Shown piece by piece: positions 6,102-53,272 of a DNA stretch of 64,000 nucleotides. This DNA is from Capsaspora owczarzaki ATCC 30864 (taxonomy: Eukaryota; Opisthokonta; Filasterea). The DNA is taken from positions 874,530 to 938,529 of the forward strand of contig NW_011887298.1 of the NCBI RefSeq assembly GCF_000151315.2. The letters are read 5' to 3'. Numbering within the stretch: the first letter of the stretch is position 1; each line of letters begins with the position of its first letter. A program made the translations under genes and the position numbers. The notes under the pieces are model-generated. The model saw only the letters and a program-made list of their open reading frames with translations. It made no database searches and had not been told where the DNA came from.

Positions 6102-9100
6102 TCAAGCATCATCGTTGCCAAGAAGATCAAAGGCGTTGGCAAAGTTCGCCGCCTGCTTGCCCTTGCCGCCCTTGCCAGCACGTGCTGCACTCGGAGAAGC
6201 CGCCGCAGCAGCTTTGCCGGCTTGGGGAGATGCCGCAACCTCGACGTGGCGCACGTTGGATGCGTGCACTGCATGCGTGGGCGCGGTAATGTTGAGCAGG
6301 TAAGCCAGCGGAATGGCGGCACCGCGACGGTCTTGGCATCTGAGTCAACGCACAAACGTCAAGATGGGACAGGGATCAGGTCAGTTCTTGATCGTCACGA
6401 TAAAACAAAAGCAGAACCAAACAACAGCAACAACAACAAAAAAAGGCAAAAACAAAACACAACAACAAAATACTCACCGATTGTGAAGCGTCGTGCCAGA
6501 CAAGAGAGGGCGGTCGAATGCAACCTCCACGCAATCCCCCAGCACGGAAATGACCGTACCCTGTGTAACGTTAATGTTTCCAAAAAGTCAAGTCAAAACA
6601 AAACGTTGAGCGACCCAATCCATCGCAATGTTTCACATCCGCGCCAATTCACTCCTCACCTTCTCGCCGAAAGGAACAGATCCATGCGACATGAGATACA
6701 CGACGCGATGTCCGGGGCGAACAACTGTATGCCCAGCGCCGGTGGCTCGGCTGCGTGACAGCGGAACGTCGCAAGGGCTCAGCATCTCGGTGTGGCTCAA
6801 GCCCTTCACGTTCACGCGCTTCTGCTCAGGTCGGTCACACAAAACGAGAACAAGTGACAAGGTTAGATGGCTTTCATCCACAAACGACGACCAGAAATTT
6901 TTCAAACAAATAATCTTGCATTCATTTTCGCGCGGCACAAAATCAAACTCACCTTGTCAGCCAAGCTGTTAATTCGCTGAGCCTCGCCCTCGATCAGTGA
7001 CACCACAACGTCAGACAATGCATGTGCGTCGCAGGAAATAAGGGGCAGCTTGGCGGCCGGGCATTCGCGGAGCCAAGAGAGGAGCTGTCAAAATAAAATC
7101 AGCAAAAGTCAACTCCACCGCAATCACACACTTCATGCGCAATGGCGGACCTGGCTCAGGCGAGAGCGAGCATGCTGATCAATGCTGGAAAGAGCGGTCG
7201 CCACTGAAGATTCGCTGGGATCGGCCTTGAGGAGCTCGTCACTGGACGCCTCTGCGGAGACAGTCTCGGCGGTTGACTCTGCATTTGCATCGCCGGCAGC
7301 GGGGGCAGAAGCCGTCCCAAACACAAAATCAAGCGGATAGTCGTCCAAGTTGGGATTGCGCTCAACAGCAGCAAACAGGTCTGGGAAGGCTTCCTTGAAT
7401 GCAATCACCAAGTCGATGGCACGCTGCGAGTACTCCCACTGAGGACCGCCGCGACGGCTGGAAAGAACAAAGGAAAAGTGGCGCAAGCGTTCAGCAACGA
7501 CAACTCGCAGTTGCAACAAGACAAGACAACAAAGAGCGCGTTTTCTACTGACCTTCTGTCATCATTCGAGCCTTCCACGCGGCGCGTGTAGCCATGAACT
7601 TGGAGAGCTCGTCGGTGGAACTTGATGCCGAGGCCGACATCCACGGCGAGCTTCTTGTCAAGCTGCGACAAACGAAGAGCAAATCACATAGATTGAGAAA
7701 CACGAACAAGAAGCACCTCCCAAACGAACGAGACTCCGACAAACCTTGATGGTAATGCTGCCAGACAAACGGGACAGCACCAATGCAGACACTCCTGTTC
7801 GCTGAGCGACATTGGCTGAAGACGAAGGAAACGCAGTGAGAAAATCGACCAGCCTCTGAAAAACCACCAAACAAAAAAAAAAAAGTCCAACTTGAAACCT
7901 CATACCGACACCAAAGTACTCCTCTTGCTTGGTGTTCAACAGCAAGCGGCTCATGGCCGAATCCAAATCGCCGGCACTGGCGGCAGCACTGACGCTGACA
8001 TCGGCGGTGTGTGCATCAGCAGAAAGCTTGGTGATGTTTCCAAGCTGCCCATACGTCGGCCCGGCAGTCAAGAGTAGGACTGGCGAGTTCAGTGTGAAGC
8101 GAGCATTAGCCGGACGTGCCTCCGTCTCCACAAAGCTGCATGATGTACGGAAGAAGAAAAAAAAGAAACACAGACCAAGAGTGAGCGCGCTCGAGAAACT
8201 CTCAATTGATTAATAAGAGAGCGCCCCTCGCCTTACCGTTCGTCCACGCGCGGAATACGACGCAGTACGACTTGAACGGCGTATCGCTCGGTTTTTTCGG
8301 CAAACTCTTTGATCAGAGCGCCGTCCACGGTTTGGCGCATGCCCTCAAACGGAGCGGCCTCGACAATCAAGTGCATGGAGGGGATGTCAATGCCTTGCGT
8401 CTTCAAGTACTGCTCCTGGAGCCGCGCGACCATGGCAGGCCAGCCCTCAGTCAGTTCCGAGCGCACAATCTGGCCCTTCTTGGACAGCCGGAGAACACCT
8501 TCGGGCTCGTACACTGCAACCCTGTTGTTTGGATTGTAATCAAAAAAGCGGATGAGACTCCTCCTGTGAACAAAACCGGTCTTGTTTTTTTCCCCCAACG
8601 CCAAACCCAAAGAAGAAAGCAACTTACACACGAGCTTCCAGGAGATGAGGATAGTTGACAGCACAGATGCTGCCCAAAAGGGCTCGGGCACTTTGGGCAA
8701 TCTTGGCTTTGGTAATGACACGGGCAAGCGTGGGGACTTCTGACAGCCGACCGTCGGCAGACGCGATGGCGGCTTGCAAGGTCTCGTCGTCGCCGTCAGG
8801 AACAGCCAACACCATCGACGCGTTTTTGGACGCCGAGCCGAACGGTGTGACGCCCACAGCTCGCAATGCAGGCGACAGAGCCAGACCACGGATGGAAGGG
8901 AATCCAGCCGGTGGTGGGATCAGTCCAGTCCAGCATCCTTCCAAAATGATGGGCTGGAACTTGCTCGAGCGAGCAGGCGGCGTGTAATCTTGGGCACTTG
9001 CGTTGGCAGAAAACGCCGGCAGCGGGGAGGAGGAGGAGGAGGAGGAGGAGCCGGCGTCTCCGCTGTCGGATTTGCGAACTGGCGACGGTACGTGCAGACC

Positions 9101-12085
9101 CTTGCCAGGAGCGTGCACAAAGAGCTGTGCCTGACCCAGCGAGCCGCGGGTGCGCTCTTCGGCCGTAAGACTGCCACTCGCCAGCGCAGTGCGCACCTCT
9201 GCTCTCAGTCGCTCAATATCAATGAAGGGAATGAGCAGCACGTCCTTGTACTCGCGCCCTTTTTCGTCGGGAATGACGCGGTGATCGGTTCGGTAAAACT
9301 CTGCGAGAGCCCCCGTCATCAGCGGGCGAAGGGGCGCCGGGAGGAATTGCGCGCTGGCAAGGGGCAGCACGGCAAGCAGCTGCTCATAAGGATTGAGCGG
9401 GCTGTCGGCGGGAAAATGAATTTGGCCATACAGCTCTCCCAGATTGACCATGTCGGAGGCGAATGGAGCAAAGTGGTACGGGAAGTACCAAGACCACGAC
9501 GCCAGACCCTGAGTGTAGTAGTGCAAGACCCACACCAAGCCCTCAAGGTAGTGCTTGATCAGCTTGCGCAACGAAGGCGTGTTTGAAACAACGTCGTCAA
9601 AGTAGGTTGCATAGTACGAGCTCTTGTAGCTGGCTTCGTCTGTTGGGGCGGGTGCAGCAGTTGGGGCGGGTGCAGCAGTTGGAGCAGGTGCAGCAGCTGG
9701 AGCAGGTGCGGCAGTTGGAGCAGGTGCGGCAGTTGGAGAGAGTTGCGGCTGAGACTTTGGCTGGACCTTGAGCAGGGCTTGCAGGCCTGCAGTCGCCGCG
9801 TGGTTGATGCCAGCAGCTTGCGGCGCGACCTGGGCAGCAGGCTGCTGGGGCTGTTGAGCCGCAGCCTTTGCGGGCGGTTCTGAATACACTGCGCCGGATT
9901 TGGCGCCTTGCTTCATGACCGAAGTTGGCAATCCCCACATGGCAGGACGAGACGAAGCAGACTTGGATTCCTGGGTTGAGGGCTGCTGCGACTGCTGCTG
10001 TTGTTGTTGTTGATGCTGCTGCTGCTGCTGCTGCTGTTGTTGCTGGTGGTGCAAGTACGCCATTTGAGCATACTGCTGTTGCATCATAAAGTACTGCTGC
10101 TGGTGCATCTGCATCATGGCAGGTGTCATGGGAACAAGACCTTGGGGCGTTTGTGCCATGGGAATGACACCTTGAGGAGTCTGCACCATCACAACAGGTG
10201 GCAGTCCTTGCATGGGTTGGGGGAAGGGCGGCTGGGGACCAGGCACCTGTTGCTGATGGGCAGGTTGCTGTTGTTGCTGCTGCGGTTGCTGTGGCTGCTG
10301 CTGCTGCTCCCCTGGGGCTTGCGCTTGACCGGGGCGGGAAGCCATTTCTGCAAACGATGCCGACAAGCTCACGATCGCAGGATCCACAAACTCGGCACTC
10401 GCAGAAGGGGCTGTGTCAGTCGTCTCCGGCTCGGTGGTAGAGGGCTTGGCAGGCTTGGTCGCACGCGTCGCATGCGCGTCGAACAACTGGCGCTCACGGC
10501 GAGAGAGATGGGCAAACAGCTGCTCCAAGAAGGCAATGTTGACAACAACCGTGCTGGCATTGACGAGGTAGTCGTTGAGCGAGTTGCGCACCTGGCGGTA
10601 AGCCTCGAATGCAAAATCCAGACCGCCCGAATCAATGTCAAAGCCAGGCATGTGCGGCAAAAAGTCGTTTCCGATGATAAAGCACAAAAAGATAAAGTCG
10701 TCAATGGTGCGCTCGAGGTTCCAAGCCGAGACCGACTGTGACGTGAGCGCTGGGGTGGCGGCCTTCTGTTGCTGCTCCATCAGCTTCTCGAGAGGACCAT
10801 GACGAAGTCCGTCGCTTCGCTTAAACCCGGCCGAGAGACCAAACTCCATGTCCAAGTACTCGCGCAGCAGCCCAATGTACAGCAGCTGCAGCTCGTCGGT
10901 CGCCTGGAAGGCCACTTCACTTCGCGCATCAGCAGCATTCACGCTGGCCTTCTTTGAGCGGAAGAGCACCTTCTCGCGCAGAATGGCAAAATGCGGTTCG
11001 TGCATGGCGAGCGATAGCATGATCAAATCGGCGTCCAATCCGTACATGCAGTGGCGAGTGTTTGGATTGTAACCTGGCTGAGACTGTCATCACAGATGAC
11101 GAAGATGGCATTGTCAGCAAGACAAATCGAAGCGACACTCAAAATGAAAACGGTGCTTTTCGTACCTTCTGCGCTCGAATCCAGTCAACAATCTTGTGCT
11201 CGCCTTCACCGGGCGTTCGATGGCCCGAGAGGATGACCTGGAGGGAGCTCCACTGAGGGCTCTCTGTGATTTTGCGCTGTGAAACCAAAGAAAATCACAA
11301 AAACAGAAACAGGACGTGAGGACTTTGCTTTCGCTCCGCAAGGTGCGCAACAGGTCCCTTCCTCCGATCTCTCTCGACAGCTGGCATATACCTTGATGTA
11401 GTAGCTCAAGTACGCCTCCATGCGATCCATAAACTCTGTGCCAGGAGTGATGCAATTTGCGTCGAACGGCAGAGCGCGTGCCTCTGCCTCAATCTCCTCG
11501 ATCGGCTTGGCGCCTACGGGTGTAGCAAACAGCACAAGCATGTTTGAAGTGAGCATCAACCTTCTGTTTGACGTGACAAACCATAGGGAGGAAGAGCGGA
11601 ACTCCTTGTTACCAGTGAGATCGCCAATGGCGCTGGCTTCCGTGCGCGCCTTCTCTGCTGCGCGTGCAGTCTTGAGACGGCGCTGGCGCTGCTGGTTCAT
11701 CTTTGCCCGCGGCGCAACACCGTCGATGGCAATGTAGACGAGCTTCTGTGGGCGAGCAACCTCGACGAGGCGATCAATCGCAGCGAACATGGCAGACATC
11801 ATCTCGAGCTCGGAGATGGCGGCGGCCCCAGCATCGTCCTTGCCATGGCTTGCGTTGTGCGCGATTCCGTTGAAATCGAGGTAGAGGTTGTCTGTGGGGT
11901 CGGGGGGGGCGGGAGAGTGGGATCCAGCAACGCCAGTGAGCAAGCGCTATTCATGCATTGTGCAATGGAAGCGAGAGACCGAGCTTGAGCGTACCAAAGA
12001 GCGGCGCATCGTTGCTTGGTCCGATGGTGCGCAGAATGAGCGGATAGCGCTCAACCAGCGCGCGAGTCAAGCGGATGACGCCCAT
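6102..12085 (-). CDS. XRN1: 5'-3' exoribonuclease XRN1
   Basis: Cytoplasmic processive 5'-3' exoribonuclease that degrades decapped mRNA. Fourteen exons (genomic, 5' to 3' on the minus strand): 12085-11995, 11891-11613, 11513-11392, 11276-11166, 11083-8628, 8563-8237, 8135-7906, 7815-7745, 7662-7553, 7457-7151, 7084-6953, 6821-6660, 6560-6478, 6339-6102. Their lengths sum to 4719 nt, giving 1572 aa with consistent phases; human XRN1 is about 1700. It starts MGVIRLTRALVERYP. Active-site segments are all visible: YLDFNGIAHN, the basic pocket MNQQRQRRLK, CITPGTEFM, PGEGEHKI, GLDADLIM and IIGNDFLPHMP. A long Pro/Gln/Ala linker splits the catalytic core in exon 5. XRN1-type D1-D3 and SH3-like segments follow (VPFGEKGTVISVLG, GTTLHNRC), which separates it from nuclear XRN2. 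Confidence 0.95.
9640..9740 (-). repeat. 18-bp tandem repeat inside XRN1 (Ala-Pro-Ala-Pro-Thr-Ala units)
   Basis: Near-identical 18-bp units in the XRN1 linker encode APAPTA hexapeptides. At about 10000-10041 the same linker has a CAG/CAA-type tract coding for polyglutamine, with more Q-rich sequence to 10310. The unit length keeps the frame, so copy-number changes would alter only linker length. Confidence 0.85.
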
Positions 12086-13449: not shown

Positions 13450-15325
13450 GCTTTTCCATCCGATCTGATTGCGATTTTTCGCCTCGATTGAGCAATGATG
13501 CCCTCCTCGACGACAACACTCGAACGGCGTCGAGAGAGGACAAATTGTCGAGTGAGCAACCTGATTGACTGTTCGGAACAACGCACGAAACAGAGCTGAA
13601 GGAGAGGAGGAGAAAGGGGGGGGGGAAATACCACCCCCTGCTAGTCACGCTGGAAAGAATTTACCGTGCACTGACGATGATGACCTGATGACCACGATCA
13701 AGTGAGGTGGGACACAGTGCGTTGGACTGACTTGCTGAAATCTCAATGTCACCAAAAACCCCACACAAACAGGCGAGTTCATCAAGACATGGCGCCCGCG
13801 TTACTTCCAACTGTGCAGCGACGGCTCGTTCCGCGGCTTCAAGGAGTCCAAGCCAGTCGCTGACGAAGAGCCGCTCAACCTGTTCCACGTCTCCAACTGC
13901 CGCATCAAGCTCGCAGACAAGATCAAGAAGACGGCCTTCACCATCACCTTCTTCCAGCTCACCTCGTACATTGAGCGCATCTTTTACACGGAGACCAAGG
14001 AGGACCGCGAGGACTGGATCAAGCACATTCGCTCCATCGCCGACCGGCTCCAGGACGAGCAGGCCAAGTCGCCCGAGCCGTCCGAGGCGTCTGCAGACAA
14101 GAAGCTCAACCTGGAAGACTTTGAGATTCTAAAAGTCCTCGGCCGCGGCACCTTTGGCAAGGTAGTACTTGCCCGCAAGAAGGACACGCGCGAAATTATG
14201 GCCATCAAGATTCTCAAGAAGGAGGTCATCATGGCCAAGGATGAGGTTGCACACACCATGACCGAGAACCGAGTTTTGCAGAAGGTATGCAGGCCGATCT
14301 GTTTGTTTGTGAGATGTTTTGTTACATTTTGTGCACTCATTTTTTATTTTTATTTTTTTTTTGGCTGTCCTCTTTGTGTGTTCTGCCACATCGCAGGTTC
14401 GCCATCCTTTCCTCACAGAACTAAAATATAGCTTCCAAACGGAGGATCGACTGTGCTTTGTCATGGAGTACGTCAACGGAGGAGAGCTCTTCTTCCATCT
14501 CTCGCGTGAGCGCAAGTTCCCAGAGGAGCGTGCCAAGTTCTACGCTGCCGAAATCCTCTTGGCAATCACGCATCTTCACGACCTAGACATTGTTTACAGA
14601 GATTTGAAGGTAGGGCTCGCTACAAGTCGTCAGCTGAGGGTTTTTTTTTTCTGTGTTTTGCTCACTGTTTTCTGTCTCCCTTTCACCCCCCCCCCCACCT
14701 TCTTCTCATTTAGCTCGAAAATTTGCTCATCGACAAGGAGGGCCACATCAAGATTACCGACTTTGGTCTGTGCAAGGAAGATGTCGGCTTTGGAAACACG
14801 ACCAAGACCTTCTGCGGCACGCCCGAATATTTGGCACCCGAGGTGCTCGAGGACAACGACTATGGCCGCGCAGTGGACTGGTGGGGCCTTGGTGTTGTCT
14901 TGTACGAGATGCTCTGCGGCCACCTGCCCTTCTACAACCGCGACCACGAGGTGCTCTTTGAGCTCATCCTCAAGGAGGAGATCAAGTTCCCTTCGTCCCT
15001 CAGCCCTGCCGCTGCCTCGCTCCTGGCGCAATTGTTGCAAAAGGATCCCAAGAACCGCCTCGGCAATGGAACGCGCGACGGCCGCGAGATTATGGAGCAT
15101 CCCTTCTTTGCCAACATCAACTTTGACGACATGTACAACCGTCGCGTGCCTCCGCCCTTCCTGCCCAAGGTTGCATCGGATATCGACACGAGCAACTTTG
15201 ACGCCGACTTTACTTCGGAATCCACGCAACTCACCCCGCCAGAAGAGAGTGCGCTGAGAAAGACTGCTGACGCTGAGTTCCAGAACTTTACCTTTGTCGC
15301 CGACAGCACATTGAAGCAGCAGTAA
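12373..15325 (+). CDS. AKT: RAC/AKT serine-threonine protein kinase
   Basis: AGC kinase acting downstream of PI3K and recruited to membranes through its PH domain. Exons 12373-12457, 13773-14284, 14397-14609 and 14714-15325 give 473 aa with consistent phases; human AKT1 is 480. The PH domain (about residues 18-120) has [20 protein letters not shown], matching the phosphoinositide-binding Lys and Arg of AKT. The kinase domain (about 146-404) has [22 protein letters not shown] and TDFGLCK, and an activation loop [14 protein letters not shown] with the PDK1-site Thr. The C-terminal hydrophobic motif FQNFTF supplies the TORC2-type site, with Thr as phospho-acceptor. Intron 1 is about 1.3 kb, far longer than the others, rich in homopolymers, and starts with GC rather than GT. 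Divergent from XRN1. Confidence 0.95.
12458..12459 (+). other. Non-canonical GC splice donor of AKT intron 1
   Basis: Exon 1 ends AAGCGAG and is followed by GCAAGT. Joining here to the acceptor AG at 13771-13772 restores Arg-Gly-Glu-Phe-Ile-Lys, exactly the AKT PH-domain sequence. The downstream GT in the same string gives the wrong residues. Apart from the C this is a strong U2-type donor consensus, as is usual for GC-AG introns. Confidence 0.8.
12507..13448 (+). repeat. Homopolymer tracts in AKT intron 1
   Basis: Uninterrupted T runs include about 30 nt at 12507-12536 and about 42 nt at 13407-13448, with several A or T runs of 14-18 nt between. Similar tracts occur in other introns and leaders of the window. 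They are on the sense strand but too far upstream to be the polypyrimidine tract for the acceptor at 13771. Confidence 0.85.
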
Positions 15326-28601: not shown

Positions 28602-31243
28602 TTAATGTCGCTGGCGGCGAATGCTGCAGGGCTGCTTGCGGCCCTTGAAGGAGCAGGTCATGCGGTTAAAGTCGATCGTAACGGGGACGTTCTTGATCGA
28701 GAGCGAAACGACGGCCGCAGAGCCGCCGGCCTTCTTGTGCTTCTTGTAGGCAGAGTTGACGAGCTTGGAGGAAGCGTCGTCCCACTTTTGCCAGTCCTTG
28801 CCCTCCTGGACCTCCCAGAAGTGGCGGCTCCCGTCAGTGTGCGAGCTGGCCGATGCCTCCTCGCTGCTCGAGCTCTTCTTGGGGGCTGCCACAGCAGTCG
28901 CAGCAGCGGCAGCAGCGGGGGAGATGGAGGACTTTGCTGTCCCGAAGGTAGACTCGTCAGCAACGTGCATCGCTTCCAGCTTCTTGGTGATTTCGCGCGA
29001 CTTTCGCTGGAGCTTGGCGAGGGACTTTTCCTCCTCCTGGAGACGCTGGGCCTCTTCCAAAACAGCCTTCTGGTGCAAGGAGAGACTCTTGAGGAAGGCG
29101 ACGCGGCGGCTCTCGTCGCTCTTCTTGGCAGCGCTGACTTCGTCCTCCCAGTACGCCTTCTCGCGCGCATTGAGGCTAGACCACTTCTCGCCGAGCTGCT
29201 TTTGCAAGTCGGAGAACTTGATGCCTTCGTGATCGGCGAGGTACGTTTCGCGGGTGCTCTTGACGAACTGGAGGTACGGCGTAATGCCAGTGACCTGCGG
29301 CAGGCGCTCGAGCAGATCGGTCATCTCGGGGGTCAGGCGGCTGGGGCGCTTGGGACGATGCGAGTCGCCGTCGTCACCGCCGTCGCCCTTCGAGGCACGC
29401 GACGTCTTGCGCTCCTTTCGGGCAGCCTCGCGCTGAGCCACGAGCTCCGGGTTGGCGGCGTTGAAAGACTCGAGCTCCTTCTGGTACTTGCGGACGTCGT
29501 TCTCGTACGACTTTTTGAACTTTTCGCGCTGATCCTCCGTCAGATTCTTCCAGCGCTCACCGAGCAGCCTGGCGATGTCCTTGTACGGCACGTTCGGATT
29601 TTGCTCACGGACTGCCGCTCGGTGCTTTTCCGAGAACTTGATGAAGGCGGTACTGCGTGAGAGGGACGAAACAAAGACCAAAACCAAAAAAGAAAAAAAA
29701 TGAGTCTTGAGCATTGTTTGTGCAAAAAATACCCCCTTGTACTCTAGTACTCTTGGAATGTTGGATGGGGAAACTCGCACATCCCGAAGGCTAGCTTTTC
29801 CGGAATACTTACGCGGGCCGGTGGGGTTCGCCAGGGAGACGCTCGGACTTTTGACGGTTCTTGGCGACCTTGGCCATCTCGGGATGCTCGGCAAGGTACT
29901 CTTCCATGTCTGCCTTATACTTGACGAGAAGGGCCTCGGCTTGACGCTCAAACTCCTTCTTTTTGGCGGGAGGGAGCTCCTTCCACTCCTTGGCAATCAG
30001 GGAGATGATTTCCTGCACAGAGAGGTCGGTGCGCTTCTGCTTGAGCGACTCGCGGCGCCTCTTGACGAAGAGGGCGTAGCCGTTCGGCGGGCGCTTGGGC
30101 GCGTTGGGATCCTTTTCCATGGCGTCCTTCTTGCGACGGCCGCGGATGCGCAGAGGCTCGGAGCTCACCTTGTTCTGCTGGACCGCCCAGCCAAACAGCA
30201 CGCTCAGCAAGAAGACGTTGTCCTTGATGGGCTTGCGAGCTTTGATCTGCGGAGGAGGAAGTAAAACGAACGAGTCAGTCCGCAAGCAAGAAGAAAAAAA
30301 AACAAGCGAGACAGCAAGGCAAGGCAAGACAAACAATAACACATACCACGCTGAGAAGTTTGGTGAAGCGAGCGCGAATCACTGACGCCGAAAGCTTGTC
30401 CGTCTTCAATGCCTCCCAGTCGATCGTGTCAACGGAAGCCTGCTCGTCTGCCTCGAACACCTGGGCAAGCTTGGCCAAGATGACTTTGTCGTCGGCATGG
30501 AACTCTGGCGGGAAGGCTGTTCGAGGAGGAGGGGAGAAATGTGAGGATGTTGGAGCAAAAAAAAAAAAAAAATGCCAAGAAACGCCTTCCACAAATCAAA
30601 ACAAGCACTCGCACCACCACGTTACCTTTGCTCTTGGAGTGCTCATCATCGTCGTCATCGTCATGATCCTCGCCCTCTTCTTCGTCCTCCTCTTCTTCTC
30701 CTTCTTCGTTCTCCTCTTCTTCCTCGTCTTCGTGATCGTCGTTCCACTCCGAGATGAAGGCGGCGGCGTTGTGCGCCTGCTTTTCGACGTGCTCGTCGTC
30801 GTGCTCCTCGTCGTCGTCATCGTCGTCGGGGTATGCAGGAGGCGTGTGCTTGTGGTGCGCGGGCTCCAGGCGGGCCTTCTTGCTGGCGGCCGCAGCAGCA
30901 GCCGGAGGAGCCGTTGCGCGGCGCTTTTGCGCACTGGCTGCTGAAGAAGCAGCAACTACCAAATTGGTGAGGCATTCGCAGCGAGTGAGTTTTGGGAGGA
31001 AGGAGGCAGCAATCCTCAGCAAGAGCACCATTTTTGGCGATTTTGCGTTTGAAAGTACAAAAAGCGCGCCATTTTTTTTTTCTTTGGTTTTTTTCTATTT
31101 TTCTGAATGCAATGTCGCATTCAAAGTGCTCAGGGTGGATGCGCGATAAGCCCTTCAAGCGACAGGGGGCCGTGCCCAGCATGAAACGGGGGGTGCAGGG
31201 CAAAGGTTGAGCGATGAAGCTTACCAATTGGAGTTTTGACCAT
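28602..31243 (-). CDS. UBF-like protein: acidic region, Myb-like segment, three HMG boxes and a C-terminal WWE domain
   Basis: Exons 31243-31225, 30955-30626, 30516-30347, 30246-29813 and 29652-28602 give 667 aa with consistent phases. Order: MVKTPIG start; Ala-rich and strongly acidic Asp/Glu region (about 45-115); Myb-like helices (about 127-180, IDWEALKTDKLSASVIRARF) resembling the segment before HMG box 1 of human UBTF; HMG box 1 (about 220-290, DPNAPKRPPNGYALFVK), box 2 (about 315-385, LLGERWKNLTEDQREKF), box 3 (about 437-505, LGEKWSSLNAREKAYW); coiled coil; and a C-terminal WWE domain (about 592-665: FWEVQEGKDWQKWDD, SIKNVPVTIDF, CSIRRQ). HMG boxes bind or bend DNA; WWE domains in RNF146 and PARPs bind iso-ADP-ribose or assist ADP-ribose signalling. 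The conserved WWE Glu in the helix appears replaced (LVNSAY). Nuclear or nucleolar action is inferred. Confidence 0.85.
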
Positions 31244-33963: not shown

Positions 33964-36900
33964 ATGATCACAAGCGTAATGTTCCTGTCCCGAGCCTTGC
34001 GAAAAATCCTCAGCGAGAAGGACACTCGAAAGTTCCCAAAGCTGCGCGAGGCCTGCGACAGCGCTCTCGGTAAGCAGTACCACAACCCCACCAGACAGAA
34101 GCCGACAAGCAAAATCGAGATTGATGCTCCCTTGCAAGCGAGTCGAGGTTGAGTTGTATGATGGGAGGAGTCGCCGAGAGAATGAGAGAACGAGAGTGGG
34201 AGGAAAAAGTTGAGTGAGCGTGCATTAGAGCGACTGCCGTTTCAGCACGCGCGTTTGCGGGGGGGGGGAGTCTGTGGAGGTGACCGAGTCGCAGTGTATG
34301 CGTCACCTCTCGTGATCATATACTTGAGGCATGGGGAGCGAGGCGAGAGTGGGGGCCAGGAGGAAAGGCACGGGGGGAAAGGGCGATGCTGTCGTCGTTC
34401 TCGTGCGGGTCCTCCTCGCCGTACCACCCTCTTCAGCACGTCGTGAAAGCGCTGTCGACCAGCAAGTGAGAACGCACGCCGCGCGGGTATCCAAGCAAGC
34501 GTGGTGCGCTGCTTCGGCTCCCTTCTTTTTTTTTTTTTTTCTTTTTTTTTTCGTTTTCTTTTTTTTTTTTTTTTCTTTTTCTTTTATTTCTTTCATTTGG
34601 CCTGCTTTTCCTCTGCGATCGCCGCTCGCTTCGCTGTCGCCCAGCAGCCCCGCACTCTGGCTTTGTCCATTGCCGTGTCCGTCTAGTCCACTTCCCGAAG
34701 CAGGCTCGCCCGCCACTTGATCTGGACGCGCAACTCGCTCAAACTGCCACGGCTGCAAACCAGGGTTTTTTATTTTCTTTTTTTTTCCTTTTTTTTTCTT
34801 TTTTTTGTTTTTTTTTGTTTGATTAGAGCTAGAGCTTGCAGCGTTTTGTCGAGCGTTGGATGCAATCTTCAACTTACTTTTGTCTGTGATGTCATCGTTC
34901 TTGTTGTTGGCGTTGTTTTTGTCTGTGTGTCTCAGCGGACGTCGATGTGGAAATCGCTGCTCAGGAGAAGAAGACGGGCATTCATATTGCAGCGAGGTTT
35001 GTCGTTTCCAACTTGGACCAAGCTATGTGTGCTTGTTTGTGACATTGTGGACGGACGACGCATGCGAATTTGCGTGGACTGAGAATCACTGACGTCTGAG
35101 AATTTTGTGGGGACGTTGGTTGGCGACTTGCAGCGACAATGACTTGGAAATCACACCGGCGTCCCCGATGCCGCCGCCCACCTCAAAGGACAACTTTGTC
35201 AACGCCGACAAGTACTTTTTGCCCTTCCAGCTGGCATGCGAGACTCAGAATGTCAAAATCACAGTCACCACCCTGGATTGTTTGCAGGTACGTGCTTGAT
35301 GATTCATGCTGCTACTCATCGGTTCGTCGACACTGATCGTGCCACCTGTTGTAACACCTGGCGTGCGTGTGCTCTTTGAACCCCCCGCCCCCTTGTTCCT
35401 CCTCTTGCTTTGGATCTGACCAGAAACTGATCGCTTATGGACACTTGCGTGGAGACTTGCCGCTCAAGTCCAACCCAAACAAGAAGCTCATCGACCTCAT
35501 CGTTGAATCCATTTGCAGCTGTTTCATCAACGACAGCACGGATGAGCAAGTCCAGTTGCAAATCATCAAGGTAAGACGGTGGTGGCTCGGTTTGCGTTTG
35601 GCCGGGCATTTGGCTTGAAAAACTGGGCTGACCACCTAGAATCTTGATCTCCACACCCACTCATATTCCCACGACAGGCTTTGCTCACAGCAGTCACATC
35701 CAACACTTGCGAAATTCACGATGCTGCCCTGTTAAAAGTCGTGCGCACCTGTTACAATATTTTCTTGGCGAGCAGAAATATTGTCAACCAAACCACGGCC
35801 AAGGGCACGCTAACTCAAATGCTGAATGTGATCTTTTTGCGCTTGGAGCAACAAGGAGTGAGTATATTTTCCTTTTATTATGTCGACTGACGGGCTGAGC
35901 GAGCAACAGCATTTGGGTGTGGAACTGACAAACTGCGGTTTTTTGTTTGTTTGGTTGGTTGGTTGCAGATTTCCACCTCGATTGATGCCAGCCACTCCAT
36001 CAGTGCCAATGGTGGGGAGGATGATGACGATGGAGAGGACGGTGGAGCTTCGACATCCATTGCCGCCCAGGAGTTGGCCGCTACGTTTGCCGCTGCTGAG
36101 CAAGCTGCCGCGGCCGCGGCTGCTGCTGCGGCTGCAGCTGCAACTGTCGTCGACACGCCTGCACAACCATCTACTTCAGAGGAATCGCAGGCGAGCGCGG
36201 AAGGTGCAGAACCCTCAGAGGACGCGCCCGCTTCTCCCGAACAGCCTGCAGCTTCAGTCGGCGACTCGGGGAACGAACCCGCGGCGGAACCCACGCAAGA
36301 ATCTGCTGCCCCTGTTGACAACGCTCCAGCTGACGCTAGCGCGACACCCGCCCCTGTCACCCCAGCCAAAACCACCCCCATCACCCTCAAGCCTCCACAA
36401 GCTGGCGCGCAGCCTGGCAAGTATGGCTACTGCATCGTCTGTGGTATTCCGGCCAACCATTGGTGCGCGCAGACCCGCGAACCCGTGTGCAGTGTGGAAT
36501 GCAAACGCCTCTATCTCGACCACATTCAAACGGCCGAGGCAACTGCTGGCAACGCCGATCCGTCGGGTCAAGACTTGCCTGCGGGCGTGCGCTTTGCTCA
36601 CGTGGCCCAGCGAGACGCCTACCTTGTCTTCCGCTCGCTGTGCCGGCTGTCGATGCGCCCATTGCCAGAGAACCACGTGGACAACCGCTCAAATGAGCTG
36701 CGATCCAAAATCCTCTCGCTCGAGCTGCTCCTCAACATTTTGCAAAATGCTGGCCCCGTCTTCCAGTCATCCGAGAGTCTGATCAACGCCATTCGCAACT
36801 ACCTTTGCTTGTCCCTGAGCAAGAACGGTGTTTCACCCGTCCCGATCGTGTTTGAGCTGTCGCTGTCCATCTTCCTCACCATTCTGTCGCTGTTCAAGGC

Positions 36901-39900
36901 ACATCTCAAGCCGCAGCTGGAAATTTTCTTCAAGGACATCTTCCTCAACATTCTGTCCTCGCCATCGAGCGCCTTCCAGCACAAGTGGATGATTATGCTC
37001 GCCATGAGCAAGATCTGCGCCGACCCGCAGATTGTCGTCGATCTCTATGTCAACTACGACTGCGATCTGACCATGGAGAACATTTTCGAGAAACTCGTCA
37101 ACGACCTCGCGCGCGTGGCGCAAGGCCGCAACCAGACCGAGCTCGGTGCCACCCCCGCACAGCAGCAAGCAATGAAGGTGAAGGGCTTGGAGACGGTGGT
37201 GACCATCCTCCACTGCTTGGTCGAGTGGACGCGCGAGCTCGAGAACGAGCGCACTCAGACAATCGATGCGCGGCTGATGCAAAACCTCGCGGGAGGCGAT
37301 CAAGCCGCTGGTGCCGGTGCGAACGTGGCGCTGTCGGCTTCTTCTGCCGCCGCCGAGACGGCCTCCATCCACTCGAACGACGGCACCAACGGCACGACGA
37401 CGAGCGTGCCCATGTCCCAATCGCCCAGCAGCAGCAACCTCACGCAGAGCCACAACAACCTGGTTCTGCCCTCGAGCGCGCAGCAGACGCCTGCGCTCGT
37501 CCCTTCTTCGGGCGCTGGCACTCCGTCGACCAACGGTGGCAGTGTGACGCCTGTCGACTTTGAGACGCTCAAGCGCACCAAGGAAATTCTCGAGGAGGGT
37601 CTTGCTCGGTTTATCGAAAAGCCCCGCAAGGCAATCCAATTCCTGCAACAGCAAGGTGTAGTGGGCCAAACCGCGCCCGAGGTTGCCCACTTTTTGATGA
37701 CCAACGAGCGCCTCAGCCGGACGGCCATTGGCGAGTTCTTGGGCGATGCCGATGCTTTCTGCATCGAAGTCATGTACGCGTATGTGGACCACCAGGCCTT
37801 CAACAACCTGTCGCTGGTCGAGGCCCTGCGCAAGTTCCTCGAGGGCTTCCGTCTGCCAGGCGAGGCCCAGAAAATTGACCGTCTGATGGAAAAGTTTGCC
37901 CAACGCTACTGCAAGGACAACCCCGAAAACCCTTACTTTAGCAATGCTGATACGGCCTATGTCTTAGCATTCAGCGTCATCATGCTGACCACCGATCTGC
38001 ACAGCCGTCACATCCAGAAGAAGATGACCAAGGCCGAGTTTGTGCGCAACAACCGCGGCATTAACGACTCGAAGGATTTGCCGAAAGAATACCTGGAATC
38101 CATCTACGACGAGATTGCCAAGCAGGGCATTCGCATGCGTTCGGAAAAGCCGGGCAAGGTTGCTGTGCATGGCGGTGACTTGCTGTCCGAGAAACAGCGC
38201 AAGGACTTGTACAACAAGGAAATGGAGTACATGCTCGAGGCTGCCGAGGCCAGCCTGAAGGACAAGGTCCGCCACACCAAGCCCTTCATTCTCGCCACGT
38301 CTGCCGAGCACGCCAAGCACATGTTCAAGGTTGCCTGGACGTCCATGCTTGCGTCGCTTTCGATTCCGCTCAAGAACAGCGACGACCCTTACATTGTGTC
38401 GTTGTGCCTGGATGGTTTCCGCTATGCCATCCACACTGCGTGCATCTTTGCTCTCGATCTGGAACGCGACGCCTTCGTTCAGTCCCTGGTCAAGTTCACG
38501 CCCGGTATCGGCGGCGTGGTGGACATTAAGCCCAAAAACATCGAAACCATCAAGACCTTGGTGCAGATTGCCCGCACGGACGGCAACTTTTTGAAGCAGT
38601 CGTGGCATCCCATTCTCAAGGTCATCTCGCAGCTCGACTTGGGTCAAGTGATTGGCACCGCGCCGCTCGCAGGCAACACGCCTGCTGCCGCTCCCTCTGC
38701 TGCTGCTCGATTTGTCGGCATGTTCACGGGCCTTGGTCAGTCTTCGACCGACCTGCGTGGTCCAAACAGCCCTGCATCGCGTCGCTCGCTCGTCGGAACC
38801 GGCGGTGCTTCCTCTGGCAGCGCATCTGTTGGCGCGGGTGGTGCGGGTTCGGTGCCAGGTGGCGCCGGCGCAGGGTTGAGTGGTCAAGGCGCTGGGCACC
38901 CCAGCGCGCTTGGCGGGTTGCTGTCGCAGTCGGGCTCACAGCTCATGTCGTCGGCTGCGTCGTACGCGGCGTCCGCAATTGCCGCGGCAAACGCATCCGC
39001 AGCTGCAGGTGCCTCCATCTACCAAACCACCTTCTTGCAAGGGCCGAACGTGGTGGATGCTCAGCCTGTGCAGGCGCGTCCTCTCGCTCAGTCCATCTTT
39101 TCAGAGCATAGTGTGCGAAGTGAGCATTCGGTTTTGGCTCAGCAATCGAATGCTGCTGCTGCTGCTGCCGCCGCCGCTGCCGCCGCCGCTTCTTCGTCCA
39201 GCTTGTCGCCCTCACACTCGTCCATTGCGACACCCCTCCGAAGCTCGGCCCTGCCGACAGTGGACAATCAGACGGACGACATTAACGGCACGCAGAGCTT
39301 TTCGGTTGCCATCGATCGCGTGTTTACGCAGTCGAGTCGTCTGGATGGTGACGCCATTGAAGAGTTTGTGCGCTGGCTGTGTGCCGTCTCCCTTGATGAA
39401 TTGCAGGCCCCCGGCAACCCTCGCATGTTTTGTTTGCAAAAGATTATCGAGGTGTGCAGCTACAACATGGGCCGTCTGCGCTTTGAGTGGTCGCGCATCT
39501 GGTCTGTGATTGGCGATTACTTCAACAAGGTTGGTTGCCTGGCCAATTTGGACGTGGCTCTTTTCGCGGTTGACGTGCTGCGCCAAATGTCCATGAAGTT
39601 CCTCGAGAAGGGCGAGCTCGCCCAATTCCACTTCCAGAAGGATTTCCTCAAGCCGTTCGAGTACATTATGTCGCACAACAAGTCTGTGACGATTCGCGAC
39701 ATGGTTGTGCGCTGCCTGTGGCAGATGGTGCAAGCCAAAGCCAAGAACATCAAGTCCGGTTGGAAGAACATTTTCTTTGTCTTTTCCATTGCAGCCAGCG
39801 ATGAAGACGAGGGCATCGTGTCGCTCGCCTTCCGAAGCGCATTGTTGATTCTCGAAAACCACTTTGATCTCGCGGCCGATAGTTTCCTCGACGCCATGAA

Positions 39901-40630
39901 CTGCCTGACCGAGTTTGCATGCAACCAGGCCTACCCCGATGTCAGCCAGGATGCCGTTCGTCTCATTGACGTCTCTGCCATGCGCGTCGCGCACAATCCC
40001 ACCCTCTTTACAGAGTCTGAGCAGTCGCTTGCCACCGACGGCGAGGATCGGCTCTGGGTTCGCGGTTGGTTCCCGATCATCTTTGCCCTGTCGCGCATCA
40101 TTAATCGCTGCAAGATTGACGCCCGGACACGGTTAGGGTTTTGTTGTTTTCTTTTTAGTTTTTGCTGGTGTTGGAAACTTTTTTTCCTCGGTGGACAAGG
40201 TGGCTCTTGGTGGACGATTGTGCTGGTCGAGCTTTTACTTACAGTGATTATTTGATGCTTCTTCCTCCTCTGTGTGTTTCTTTGAGCAGTGCCCTTGATG
40301 TGCTGTTCGAGGTGGTCAAGACGTACGGAGCTGATTTCAAGCCACAGTGGTGGCGCGATCTTTTTGCCGTGATCTTCCGTATCTTTGACGATAACAAGAT
40401 GCCCGACTCTGTCGCTGAACGGAACGAGTGGATGAACACGACGTGCAACAGCGCCGTGTTCAAGGTGGTCGATCTGTTCTCGCACTTTTACGAAACCCTG
40501 TCGGCCATTCTGCTTGCCGATCTGTTTGACTGTTTGCATTGGTGCATCACCCAAGGTATGATTGGCCTCTGTTGGAGAATGGATTGTAGTATTCTTGGGT
40601 TGTGAGCTCATCATTGCGCACGCCCGTTTG

Positions 40631-40666
<36 letters not shown>

Positions 40667-42164
40667 TGGGACCAGACAATGAGCAACTTGCTCGGTCTGG
40701 CATTCATTGCTTGCAGGTCTTTATCATGACGAACGGACCCAAGTTCGATGCGGATGTGTGGTCGACTGTTTCGGGACAGGTCAAACGCATTTTCAATTCA
40801 ACTGTGCCCCATTCTCTGATGTCGTAGTACCAGCATCAACTCTTGCAACAGCAACAGCAGCAGCACCAGCACCAGCACCACCAGCACCACCACACTGACG
40901 CGGAAGAGCCTGAGCATGGTCGCGAGCCAGGTAAAAATTGAATCGAGTTTGTTGATTGAGAGTTATTGGTGAGATGAGGGGCTTTTCCTTTTGTGTGTTC
41001 ACTTTGCTCACGCTGTAACTACTGTGGGTTGCCGTTGCTACGCCTGTTGCAGCCGTGCCAAAGGAGCGAGTGATCAACTTTACATCCATCATTATCAAGT
41101 GTGTCGTGCAGCTTGAATTGATTGCGGCCGTGGAGCGCGTGCTCTTCAACTCGATTGATTCCTTGACGGCTGCCGAAGCGACCACCCCAACGCCAGCACA
41201 GCCTGCTGCCACTGCCTCGTCCGCGGAACCAAAGACGGCCGTTCCTACTTCAGACGACGCCGCTGCCGCCGGTACGGCTTTGGCTGTCGATCCAAACGCG
41301 CTCGGCTCCTTCCGGTTGATGGCCAATGGCAACATTAGTGTGCTGCTTGAGTGCTTGGAGCAAGCCCATGACTTTGCCAAGCGCTTTAACGGCAACTACG
41401 ATTTGCGCACTGCCTTGTGGAAGGCCGGTACGTGTAAATCGCGGAAACGAGGCTCCTTGTTCTCGCGGTGTTTCTCACCAATGCGATCTGGGGGTGGGGT
41501 TTTCTTTGTTTGTTTGCTTGTTGTGTTGGTAGGTTTCATGAAGCAAATGCCCAATCTCTTGAAGCAAGAAACGACCAGTCTCGCAGCCACTCTCAAAGTT
41601 CTCTTCCGACTCTTCAACGACGATGCCCGCACTGAAATGTGGACGGCGGCGGAATCTCGCATCTTGATGTATGTGTTGACGCAGCGAGGCCAGGTTTTTT
41701 GTTTTGCGAGGGGGAGGGGGAGGAAGGCATTTTGTACATTTATGTGGATCAAACCCCCGCTGACTTGGCTTGCTCTCCCTTGCACACAGTCTGGGCCAGT
41801 CCGTGTTCAAGTACTATTGCACCATTGCGGCCGAGAAGCAACGCGATGTGTGGAACCCTGTTCTCATCCTGCTGCTCGACTCCATTTCCCGCCTTACAGA
41901 TGCACGGGTAAGTGTTGTCGTTATGGTAGTCGTCGTAGTCGTTTTCCCTGGCGCTTGCCATCAAACATTGGTGCCCACACTCGCTCTCACTGTCTCTTTG
42001 CAATTTGACGCTCGCAGTTCCGAAAGCAAGTTCAATCCCTCTATCCCTATATTGTCAAGAGCCTTGCGTTCGAGTTGAAGCCAAACCTGCGAGTGTCCAT
42101 TCAACGTTTGCTGGAACGCACCGGTGCTGAATTTGGCATTGTCGTTCCAGCCACCGCTCCGTAA
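33964..42164 (+). CDS. ARFGEF: Large Sec7-domain ARF guanine-nucleotide exchange factor BIG (ARFGEF1/2)
   Basis: Golgi/TGN GEF activating ARF GTPases. Exons: 33964-34069, 34936-34996, 35134-35287, 35424-35570, 35678-35857, 35969-40131, 40290-40555, 40676-40930, 41053-41427, 41533-41668, 41790-41907, 42018-42164; about 2035 codons, all phases consistent. The start may instead be the ATG at 33979 ([11 protein letters not shown], the usual BIG beginning). The DCB domain has [13 protein letters not shown] and [17 protein letters not shown] zf-HIT-like finger (CIVCG, HWC, VCSVECK) lies near 36425-36520. The HUS domain follows, then Sec7 (about 37560-38160) with catalytic [17 protein letters not shown], then HDS domains ([30 protein letters not shown]). 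Ala- and Gly/Ser-rich linkers enlarge it relative to human (about 1800 aa). An in-frame TAG at 40825-40827 interrupts an otherwise perfect model. Confidence 0.93.
40632..40663 (+). repeat. Poly-T tract (about 32 nt) in an ARFGEF intron
   Basis: An uninterrupted T run lies on the sense strand 10-45 nt before the acceptor at 40674-40675, so it can act as an extreme polypyrimidine tract. It fills much of a 120-nt intron. Confidence 0.85.
40825..40827 (+). other. In-frame TAG within ARFGEF exon 8
   Basis: Exon 8 starts at 40676 and reads [14 protein letters not shown] through [11 protein letters not shown], homologous to BIG (IFKTTIPHVLL in human). TAG follows, then an open Gln/His-rich stretch (YQHQLLQQQ onward) to a donor at 40931 whose phase fits the next conserved exon. 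A 24-nt intron (GTGCCC at 40804 to the TAG) would remove the stop and stay in frame but is extremely short. Other options are stop read-through, sequencing error or a damaged allele. Confidence 0.7.
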
Positions 42165-47972: not shown

Positions 47973-50900
47973 ATGGCGCTTCAACGTCACACGCGACCAG
48001 GCGATCCTGCTGCGCCAACAGGGTCGGATGCCGAGGCCGCTCTCAAGATTGTCGGGAGATACGTCTACCATCCTCAAACAGACCGCATCGGTCGCGGATC
48101 CTTTGCCACCGTCTACCGAGCGCGCTACGCTGATGTATGTAACTGGTTGTTGTTGGTCTGGTGTGCGTCTTCTGGCATTGGGTGGTTTTGCTGGTCCTCA
48201 TTGTACTCTCTGCTCCGTCCTCTCCCCCCCCCTTCGTCTGGCAGGCACCCGGATACGTTGCCATTAAGCGAATCAAAAAGCAAAAACTCAGCGCACGCCT
48301 CAACGAGAACTTGGATCGCGAAGTTGATATTTTGCGCCTCGTCAAGCATCCGCACATTGTTCAGCTCTACGAAATCCAGGCTTCCAAGGAGAATGTGTAC
48401 CTCATCATGGAGTACTGTGATGGTGGGGACTTGTCACAATTCATTCGCAAGAAAAAACTGCTCCCCGAAGAGCTTGTTCGCTCTTACACGCAACAAATTG
48501 GTAAGCACCGGCTTTTTTTTTTTTTGTTTGTTTTTTTTTTTCTTTACTTTGAACAACCCTCTTGTCGATGACTGCTTTTGTGTTCTCACTTTCTGACTCC
48601 ACGCACAGCTTCCGCTCTTGAAGCTCTGCGCATGTTCAACATTGTGCACCGAGATCTCAAGCCGCAAAATCTCATGCTGGTCAAGCGAGAAACCGTCATC
48701 AAGATTGCCGACTTTGGCTTTGCGCGCTACCTTCAGACCGACACCATGGCGGAAACTCTGTGTGGCTCACCACTGTACATGGCGCCAGAGATTCTTGAAT
48801 CCAAGCAATACGATGCCAAGGGCGACTTGTGGAGCGTTGGCGTCATTCTGTACGAATGTCTGGTCGGGCACGCGCCATTCCGTGCCGACAACTATCTCGA
48901 GCTGCTCCGCACCATCAAAACATCCAAGGACCGGATACCACTCCCGCCGAACGCGTCGATTGAGTGCCGCGACGTGATTGCTGGTCTGATGTGCGTCGAT
49001 CCAGAGCGACGCATTGGGTTTGACGATTTCTTTGCCCACCCGTTCGTCGCCCTCCAGCAGTACAAGACTCGTTTGCGCACGCTCGACCCTGGCTTTGCCA
49101 AGCAGGATGAGGAACAGCGCCAACTCGCCGTTGCCAAGCATTTGGCGTCGGCATCACCCGTCCCGGCCGACGCTTCCGCTTCTCAAAGGCTTCAGGCGAC
49201 CCAAGCCACGCGCAGACCTTCACACCCGACTGACGTGGTGGACCCTATTATCGCTGCCTCTGACGCCCGACAGGAAGGACGGCCCCGCGCTGCCACTCAC
49301 AGCGGCGGCGACACTCGAACCCACCTGGCTCAGGCGCAAGCCCAGGCCGAGCGCCCCGCCCAGCCCATTGCCCAAACCGGCAAGTCCCAAGCCGTTCAAA
49401 TCCTCTCGGCAGTCCAACGCGCCGCCACCGCTGCAGCAGCCACAGCAGCAGCTGCTGTCATCAACCGCGTCACCTCCAGCCCAAACTTGGCGGCGAACCC
49501 TGCCCGATCGACGCCCAGCCGCGGGTCTGTCTCTCGGCCACCCCGCGCTGAAACTCCGCCTGGTGTCTCCTCGTTGGATGAATTCACCTTTACCGACGGC
49601 ACACCTGCCGACAATGGCCGCTCTCCTGCCGACTCTGGCCAGTTTGTTGAAAGCCAGCCTGTCAGCCGGCCCAACAGCGCCATGAACGCCTTCACCGCGG
49701 CACCAGCTCTCGTGTCCACCAAGCCCCAGCCCCAAACGGTGCAAGGCCTTGCCGGCTCGGTCGAAGACTATGTGCTGGTCGGTCCCTCCCAGCAAGTGTC
49801 GGTCAACGCTTTTGCCGACGCTGTGGCCCGCAACAAGGTCCCTAGCTCTCGCTTTGTTCCACCGAGCACCACCACCACCACCACCACCACCACCGCTACC
49901 ACTACCACCACCACAGCTTCCTCTGGCATGCCTGTCCCGCAAAAGAGCGGCGCCTCGGTTGCAATGAATCAAGCCATGACTGACGACCTTCGCCAGCACT
50001 CTCCTGGCACCGACGCCAACCGTGGCGAGCAAGCCGAACCTGACGAAGAAGACGAGCGCACCCTGCAAACCGCGTCCCCCACTTTGGGTGAACGATTTGG
50101 CGAGCATCGTGACAACAGTTTTGCTTCTCGTGTTCCGCTGACCAACCCAGCCACCAACTTCCGTGAACGTGCCAAAACATACGCATTCGGCACCTCGCCT
50201 TCTCGAGGCAGCACTCCGCACACCCCGCCTGCCGACGAAGATCGCGCTGTCCAACTGGCTCTGGCGACGTCGCCCACCAACAACACCACGCCGCACTCCC
50301 CGACCTTGATGGGCACTAGCCGCGTGATTCTGAACAAGTTTGCGGACTTGTTCTACTCTTCTTCTGCATCCTCCAATGTGCAGCCCGTCACCGATGCCTA
50401 CCTTCTCGGCACTTCCCCCTCGCGTCGCGCCATGTCCTCGTCCTCGCGCTCCTTTGACGAGGTATGTCCGGCATAGGTTTTCACGAGGGATTTGTATTGG
50501 TTGGTTGGTTGGTGGGTTTGTTTGTTCGTTCGTTCGTTTGTTTGTTCGTTCGTTCGTTCGTTCGTTTGTGTTGTTTGTTGGGCTCACCGCATTCGCTTCC
50601 GTCGTTGGCTTTTGACAGAATGTCTTGTTCAGTCGCATTGAATCGGCTGCGCAGCATGCGTTCGCCGTTCAGCGCTTGGCCAAGATTCTCAACAGCGGCC
50701 AGCAGTCGACAGGACCGTTGAATGACGACGGCACTCAGGCGCTGCTCTTGTACATGCGCGCACTCGAGTTTTACTTTGAGGGCATCAACCTGTCCCGACA
50801 GCTCGTGCGCAACAACGCCAGCATCCCCTCGGATGTCAACTCGATGATTCAGCTGCTCCGTAGCAAGATCAACGACTGCATCGACTCGGTGGATAGCCTC

Positions 50901-51591: not shown

Positions 51592-53238
51592 TCACTGATC
51601 ATCACCATTATCGTCACTTTCCTCATCATCATCATCATCGTCGTCGTCATCAGCATGACGCGCCGCGGCTTCACGACGGGCAGCGTCTTGACGAATCAGC
51701 TTCTCTCGTTCTTCGGTTGAAGCGCGCTGAGCCAACAGCCAGCTTTCCCACTTTTGCAGACGCGCTTCGCGCTGAGCGTCGGTCTCCTCGACCTTGTAGG
51801 ATGTACGACCGTCCCACTTTGCGGCTTCCAGACGGCGCCCTCCAAACCAGCGGCCATTCATGAGCTCGACACACTTGCCGGCATCTTCAGGAAGGTCGAA
51901 TTTGACAGACACCACTCCGAGTGGGTTTCGATCAAAGATGGTCACCTTGCGTACAACGCCGCATTTGCCACATTCGCTTTCCATGTCCTCCTTGAGCTCG
52001 TTCAGCTCGTTGGGATTGTCGTCAAATTCTTCGGGCGAGAAGACATTGCTAATAATCACAGTGCTCGCGCCCCGCTTGTTCTCCATCGGAACAAACTCGT
52101 CCCAGCCGTACAGCTTTTGCATCACTTTTTGCCGACGTGCTTTGACTTGCTTGAGCTGCTTGGCATTGTTGATGACGGGGCCGTGGTGTTGTGGTGGCGG
52201 CGCTTGGTCTGACTGTACCGAGGTTCCTGCCTCCTTGGCGCCGCCCTTGGCACCTGCGACCGCAGCCTTCGCACCCTTGGAGGCAGACCCGCCCTTGCTG
52301 GCTTCCTTGCTCGATTCTTTGTGACTAAATTTGGCGGCCTCGACGTGAATTGGGTGCTTGCCTCGAAAAAGCGACCCGTCCAAAAAGTCCAGCGCCAGCT
52401 GAACGGACTCTGCTCGATTGTAGCTGCACAGCGCGTCGCCCTTGGGTACGCCATTGGCATCCGTGTAGACCTTGACCTTGAGCTCATTCGTGTTCATGTC
52501 AAAGCGAATAATGCCGCATTGCGACATGTATTCGGCAAACTCTTCGGCATCCACGTCGTACGGCAGCCCAGTCACATAGACGTTGGAGTTTTTGAAAGCC
52601 GGGGCGTCGCCTTCTTGACTTTTGCTTGCTGCAGCTGCTTTGGGCGCACCTTTCCCAGGTCGACCAGGTCCAGCAGCTGCGGGAGGCTTGACGAGCTCGT
52701 CTTCATCATCGTGCTGCTCCATCCGCATGCGTTTGTACTCCCGATGTGCGGCCTCCGCATCCATCTCGCTGCCATTGGGAGCACTGTTGCCCGTAGCAAC
52801 CTGCTGGCCGCCTGATTCAAGATCCGCGCGGGTCCGCCGCGTTGTTGACGCTTCAGTAGTGGTTGATGGCGCAGCTGCCGCCGCGTTCTCATTCCCGCCA
52901 TAGCTCAACTGATACGAGTAGATGAATGCTTCATCGAGACGTGGAAACCACGCCTTTGCGCGACCGTCCCACTCGTAGATTGTCCCGTCGGTCGGGTCGA
53001 GATATGCAGGATTCTCGGCTGGCTTGTTGACGGGAGCCATCGCTGCGTGTGATCCGCCCGACTCGATTTGCGCAACAAGCAGCATTGCTTCGTAAGCAGC
53101 CCGCGAGGCCTCGTCATCGTCACCGGCTGCGTCGTTTGCGAAACGACGAGCGTCAGCGCTCGACGACGGGCTGGATGCTGACTGGGTCGCGACGCCGCCG
53201 ACCAATCCAGGCCCTGCGTTCGTAGAAGCGCCATTCAT
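51592..53238 (-). CDS. HTATSF1: Tat-SF1 / CUS2-like U2 snRNP-associated splicing factor
   Basis: RNA-binding protein that helps U2 snRNP and links splicing to transcription elongation. No intron is evident in this frame. The Tat-SF1 signature DGTIYEWDGRAKAWFPRLDE is present. RRM1 has NVYVTGLPYDVDAEEF and DALCSYNRAESVQLAL. RRM2, the UHM-like domain, begins STVIISNVFSPEEFDDNP and includes DRNPLGVVSVKF and GRWFGGRRLEAAKWDG. The C-terminus is short and acidic (poly-Asp) compared with the long human acidic tail. I placed the start at 53238, the first ATG in this frame. A better-looking beginning (MQKFTPFVAEDDDDDND) starts at 53486 in another frame, so an unrecognised intron or leader frame across the poly-Ala/Gln-type triplet repeat (53240-53272) is possible. 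Convergent with ULK. Confidence 0.88.
   Translation of the reverse strand: MNGASTNAGPGLVGGVATQSASSPSSSADARRFANDAAGDDDEASRAAYEAMLLVAQIESGGSHAAMAPVNKPAENPAYLDPTDGTIYEWDGRAKAWFPRLDEAFIYSYQLSYGGNENAAAAAPSTTTEASTTRRTRADLESGGQQVATGNSAPNGSEMDAEAAHREYKRMRMEQHDDEDELVKPPAAAGPGRPGKGAPKAAAASKSQEGDAPAFKNSNVYVTGLPYDVDAEEFAEYMSQCGIIRFDMNTNELKVKVYTDANGVPKGDALCSYNRAESVQLALDFLDGSLFRGKHPIHVEAAKFSHKESSKEASKGGSASKGAKAAVAGAKGGAKEAGTSVQSDQAPPPQHHGPVINNAKQLKQVKARRQKVMQKLYGWDEFVPMENKRGASTVIISNVFSPEEFDDNPNELNELKEDMESECGKCGVVRKVTIFDRNPLGVVSVKFDLPEDAGKCVELMNGRWFGGRRLEAAKWDGRTSYKVEETDAQREARLQKWESWLLAQRASTEEREKLIRQDAARREAAARHADDDDDDDDDEESDDNGDDQ

Positions 53239-53272
<34 letters not shown>

Follow-up and report, generated by a model that had tools for sequence, protein, structure and literature searches.

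The question raised by this locus is what a WWE domain does at the end of a protein that also carries HMG boxes. The gene lies at 28602..31243 on the minus strand of the window (the whole stretch of 64,000 nucleotides that was analysed), like all of its features given below; it combines a WWE domain with three DNA-bending HMG boxes in Capsaspora owczarzaki, a single-celled relative of animals. Published sequences support this identification of the genome: the 99-nt coWts targeting arm of PMC10959527 is present over its full length (99 of 99 nt), and both GAPDH primers of PMC9170242 fit exactly within one GAPDH locus. The 90-nt coYki arm of PMC9170242, on the other hand, found no counterpart. 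WWE domains are described as poly-ADP-ribose (PAR)-binding modules in several proteins (PMC11269756), and a first-pass annotation of the locus proposed a factor that resembles the rDNA transcription factor UBF and is coupled to PAR signalling. We favour, with a probability of about 0.5, a different reading: the gene would code for an HMGB-kind nuclear architectural protein of C. owczarzaki, whose WWE domain docks another protein without reading PAR.

The fusion of HMG boxes and WWE domain is real at the level of the gene. Read from 31243 to 28602, in agreement with the coordinates first proposed, the spliced model gives an open translation of 667 amino acids in five exons, whose stop codon ends at 28602 and whose four introns all run GT..AG. 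Exon 1 (31225..31243) provides the ATG and a GTAAG donor, exon 2 (30626..30955) codes for most of the N-terminus, exon 3 (30347..30516) for a helical region (residues 117–173), and exon 4 (29813..30246) for a basic stretch, the whole of HMG box 1 and the first part of HMG box 2. Exon 5 (28602..29652, 1,051 nt) codes for most of HMG box 2, HMG box 3, a further helix, a linker, the WWE domain and the stop, in a single open frame. In exons 2–5 the coding log-odds of the model frame, trained on two reading frames that neighbour the gene, lie between 0.53 and 0.77 bits per codon, and those of the other two frames of the same strand are negative; each of the four introns gives negative values in every frame of the gene strand. 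Exon 1 is also negative in all three frames, and since this 19-nt exon, the weakest part of the gene model, lacks a coding signal by itself, the start of the protein is uncertain.

It could be argued that the exon coding for the WWE domain is part of another transcript or gene, and that the fusion is an error of modelling. We regard this as very improbable. A single exon holds HMG box 3, the WWE domain and the greater part of HMG box 2, so that the fusion does not depend on the prediction of any splice site. In that exon the coding signal is unbroken: the model frame is positive in all seven blocks of 150 nt, including those of the linker and of the WWE domain, and outscores the other five frames in each block (some reverse frames are positive, at 0.40 at most). 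None of the four donor motifs that were searched for was found in 28602–28990. The fusion originally claimed for 28602..31243 is thus borne out by the five-exon gene, by the Pfam matches to HMG_box and WWE, and by the continuous coding signal of exon 5.

The protein begins with an acidic stretch (residues 49–113, net charge −40; 30636..30830), which is followed by the helical region, the three HMG boxes, a coiled-coil-like helix and the C-terminal WWE domain. The Pfam HMG_box profile scores the whole protein at 137.6 bits over three stretches, all above the cut-off. Box 1 (residues 223–290; 29896..30099; 68.3 bits) is followed by an extension EHPEM, and box 2 (56.7 bits; its exon-5 part at 29463..29651) by an extension NPEL. 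Box 3 (29118..29282; 40.8 bits) is divergent and has a net charge of −1, and may therefore not bind DNA. A Pfam match to MlaC (30.3 bits against a cut-off of 26; residues 334–399, about 29409–29606) overlaps HMG box 2 and looks spurious. The helix after box 3 (residues 512–548; 28962..29072) is heptad-patterned and possibly forms a coiled coil: seven of its nine a/d positions are L, I, V or M (P 0.0046 against shuffles, for a stretch picked by eye). The helical region that precedes the boxes had been called Myb-like; the search of Pfam with this region gave no significant match, and the model of the exon-3 region, with three helices, is of low confidence (pLDDT 58.9, pTM 0.30). The only two matches of the N-terminal region among PDB sequences, both to the protein CP312R (E 0.1 and 0.13), were taken as chance.

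The best match of the protein among PDB sequences is the A-B tandem of HMGB1 (E 5.2e-18). Like the proteins of the HMGB1 type, it has tandem HMG boxes and an acidic region; unlike them, it has three boxes and an acidic region that is N-terminal, and it carries in addition a coiled-coil-like helix and a WWE domain. HMG boxes were found in at least 10 places of the genome, and among these places only the present gene shows three boxes. The others, under names that are our reading of the frames, include a two-box HMGB gene (C4), a two-box frame of 934 amino acids (C8), an HMG-PHD gene (C3), an SSRP1-like gene (C14) and a SMARCE1-like gene (C1).

The identity of the C-terminal domain (residues 596–664; 28614..28820) is supported by profiles and by the predicted fold. 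The WWE profile (PF02825) scores 24.8 bits in the whole protein, against a curated cut-off of 21.1 (E 3e-5), and 29.8 bits (E 8.1e-7) when the C-terminal 78 amino acids are searched alone. A profile built from the WWE pieces of RNF146, DTX1 and TRIP12 gives 14.0 bits, which is equalled by none of 5000 shuffles (the best reaches 9.1); the assignment of residues 590–667 or so to a WWE domain is upheld by these searches. The AlphaFold2 model (window 28602–28868, 88 amino acids, single-sequence input; pLDDT 76.8, pTM 0.57) consists of two strands, a helix and five more strands, which corresponds to the half beta-barrel with one helix of the WWE fold. When this model is compared to the PDB with Foldseek, WWE-bearing chains occupy ranks 1 to 22 among the best 50 of 252 matches with E <= 10, and rank 23 is an unrelated protein with a probability of 0.16. 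Ranks 1 and 2 are TRIP12 and ranks 4–6 are HUWE1; the first of these (E 9.5e-4, probability 1.00) is the only match with E <= 0.001. A phmmer search of PDB sequences with the WWE domain alone returned four matches, none of them a WWE domain. The likeness to TRIP12 extends to a TIDFN strand. The protein differs from TRIP12 and HUWE1 in that Pfam finds no HECT domain in it, and in that the TRIP12 positions that contact the ligand are changed.

The latter difference bears directly on the function of the domain. In the pocket of WWE domains, according to PMC11269756, a conserved Gln grips the adenine, a Tyr and an Arg grip the proximal phosphate, and the contacts of TRIP12 include Tyr809, Asn820, Thr823, Thr825 and Arg827; the TRIP12 sequence is consistent with this numbering and places the pocket Gln at 818. 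MAFFT put the middle or the C-terminal part out of place when the domain was aligned with known WWE domains, and the HMM alignment was used instead. In the latter, TRIP12 Tyr809 corresponds to Val642, and the alignment stops just after Met649; gapless extension past this point pairs Gln818 with Cys651, Asn820 with Phe653, Thr823 with Arg656, Thr825 with Gln658 and Arg827 with Cys660. All six of the TRIP12 ligand positions that were compared are changed, the last five by gapless extension. The length from the Tyr position to the closing R-R is the same as in TRIP12 and in the first WWE domain of DTX1, where the Tyr, the Gln and the Arg are all retained; that of RNF146 is longer by one residue.

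Single changes in WWE domains are reported to be sufficient to suppress binding: the W611A, Q668A and Q668R variants of ZAP do not bind PAR (PMC8853533), and RNF146 R163A serves as a non-binding control (PMC7404130). Canonical PAR reading by the Capsaspora domain is therefore unlikely, as far as alignment can tell, since Val, Cys and Cys stand where the pocket has Tyr, Gln and Arg, and the change of the Gln alone (ZAP) or of the Arg alone (RNF146) abolishes binding. The domain appears, from the alignment and the structural model, to have kept the WWE fold and lost the residues that hold ADP-ribose. It is basic (net charge +10), and it might have a non-canonical way of binding PAR or a different nucleotide.

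The proposal that the protein is a PAR reader, which would target its DNA-bending boxes to sites of ADP-ribosylation, has to be considered in the context of the genome. Matches to the PARP catalytic domain are found in 12 places and matches to PARG in 4, and PAR metabolism looks to be present. In an exon-by-exon search of the genome, the only other place above the WWE cut-off is a WWE-PARP gene (L001 1–3210, that is, C10:1068116–1071325), in which we read a WWE domain, a SAP-like stretch, a second WWE domain and a PARP catalytic domain; the second WWE domain is scored by Pfam, while the first, which is a spliced stretch, and the SAP-like stretch were recognised by eye. The occurrence of a PARP in a WWE-bearing gene, like the PAR binding of WWE domains from several other proteins, speaks in favour of a reader. 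On the contrary, both WWE stretches of this PARP gene retain the pocket Gln and Arg, unlike that of the gene studied here. Together with the changed pocket and the effect of single Gln or Arg changes in ZAP and RNF146, this makes a PAR reader improbable, and the role that was first attributed to the WWE domain is not supported. The genome search for HMG boxes found none in the WWE-PARP gene, which also differs from the present gene by its PARP catalytic domain. No paralogue of the C-terminal 165 amino acids was detected in the genome: of the three matches with E <= 1, one is to the present gene and the others have E values of 0.092 and 0.149.

Another explanation is that the protein is a UBF-like factor older than animals, with a dimerisation-like N-terminus and three boxes, which acts at rDNA and in which the WWE domain replaces the C-terminal acidic tail. 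In UBTF, six boxes stand between an N-terminal dimerisation domain and a C-terminal acidic tail, and boxes 1–3 of the UBF dimer make the enhancesome loop, according to PMC10435976; a survey places the versions of UBF, which are defined by box 5, within Metazoa (PMC9438803). The general arrangement is reminiscent of UBF, with a helical region ahead of the tandem boxes, an acidic stretch, and extensions of the form [HN]P[ED][LM] after boxes 1 and 2. The evidence that most favours kinship is in these extensions: when the 15 residues that follow boxes 1 and 2 are compared in fixed register to those that follow UBF boxes 1 and 2, P is 5e-4 and 6e-3, against 0.037 to 0.98 for the controls (four other boxes of the genome, two of HMGB1, one of TFAM, and UBF box 4), values which are optimistic because the motifs had been noticed before the test. 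The segment after box 3 is matched by 77 of 5000 shuffles in the comparison to UBF box 3 and by 23 of 2000 in that to box 6. A single local alignment with UBF runs through the N-terminus and boxes 1–3 with a score of 216, a figure that has no shuffle control. It is also in favour of this explanation that boxes 1–3 are the part of UBF described as forming the enhancesome loop, and that the genome offers no other three-box gene among the HMG places found, which are a lower bound, and no match to UBF box 5 (PF14887) at E <= 10, in a search of six frames, exon by exon, that had no positive-control genome.

The other comparisons argue against membership of UBF. The human UBF sequence used was confirmed against a PDB chain over residues 103–192 alone. 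The similarity of the region before the boxes to the N-terminus of UBF, which the first-pass annotation had pointed to, does not rise above chance: its local score of 31 is matched by 685 of 5000 shuffles, and the end-to-end score by 3361 of 5000. Box by box, only box 1 prefers its own counterpart (UBF box 1, score 109); for boxes 2 and 3, too, UBF box 1 is the best match (113 and 67), ahead of their own counterparts, which score 74 and 53. Boxes 1 and 2 both score higher with the two-box HMGB gene of the same genome (140 each at best) than with any UBF box (109 and 113), and conversely, human UBF used as a query in the genome finds the HMGB gene (E 5.1e-5) ahead of box 1 (5.1e-4) and box 2 (0.048) of the present gene. 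Instead of five or six boxes including box 5, there are three, with nothing that corresponds to boxes 4–6, and the acidic region lies at the opposite end of the protein, whose C-terminus is a basic WWE domain. The resemblance to UBF lies in the extensions after boxes 1 and 2; the number of boxes, the place of the acidic region, the lack of a box 5 match, the N-terminal similarity, which is not significant, and the box-by-box matches weaken the case. Kinship to UBF is weakly indicated by the sequence, membership of UBF is not established, and it is possible that the protein works like the three-box core of UBF. We consider the UBF-like explanation as a whole to be unlikely, if a serious candidate. 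Its more specific form is more doubtful still: a UBF-type enhancesome factor from before animals, whose three-box core would already have been present in their unicellular relatives, with the acidic region moved to the front and an ADP-ribose-blind WWE domain as a docking tail at rDNA.

The apparent loss of the ADP-ribose pocket makes a chromatin docking factor more likely than an ADP-ribose reader. In the HMGB-kind architectural protein that we favour, which would be nuclear, the three HMG boxes would attach to DNA and bend it. In HMGB proteins, acidic tails modulate DNA binding or contact histones, and the N-terminal acidic stretch may do the same here. The helix that follows box 3 may pair two copies of the protein. 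The WWE domain would most likely dock a partner, for example one from the ubiquitin or PARP pathways, or else a chromatin protein.

The first-pass annotation knew of no described protein with this order of domains. A literature search at the level of titles likewise found no published description of an HMG-box/WWE fusion among the matches listed, and the portions of the literature on Capsaspora and WWE domains that were available do not mention the gene. In collections of prokaryotic and viral contigs, 131 and 14 pattern matches were obtained, of which none was confirmed as a relative; these collections are poor in eukaryotes, so that the result does not bear on the spread of the fusion. If the protein is UBF-like, the animal rDNA chromatin factor would be older than the survey cited above placed it (PMC9438803), and Capsaspora, whose genes have reportedly been disrupted in one study (PMC9170242), could serve as a test organism. 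If it is not, the gene provides a candidate for a WWE domain that has kept its fold and lost its ADP-ribose pocket once joined to a DNA-bending protein. It is important to note that the name of the domain alone is then insufficient to annotate WWE proteins as PAR readers.

Last, we note the frames that surround the gene in the window. On the minus strand are a frame with VIT and von Willebrand A domains (2290–5289) and an XRN1-like 5'-3' exonuclease frame with XRN_M, XRN_N and XRN1_D1 (8627–11086), and a run of N (about 58416–59209) falls within a long minus-strand frame. On the plus strand, a frame at 13739–14428 with a PH domain and then the first part of a protein kinase is AKT-like by its arrangement, the name being our reading; BIG-type Sec7 ARF exchange factor frames are found at 35891–40252, with Sec7, HUS and HDS, and at 41019–42005, with BIG2_C. 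A protein kinase frame (48572–50473, plus strand) and an RRM frame (51595–53562, minus strand) lie further along.
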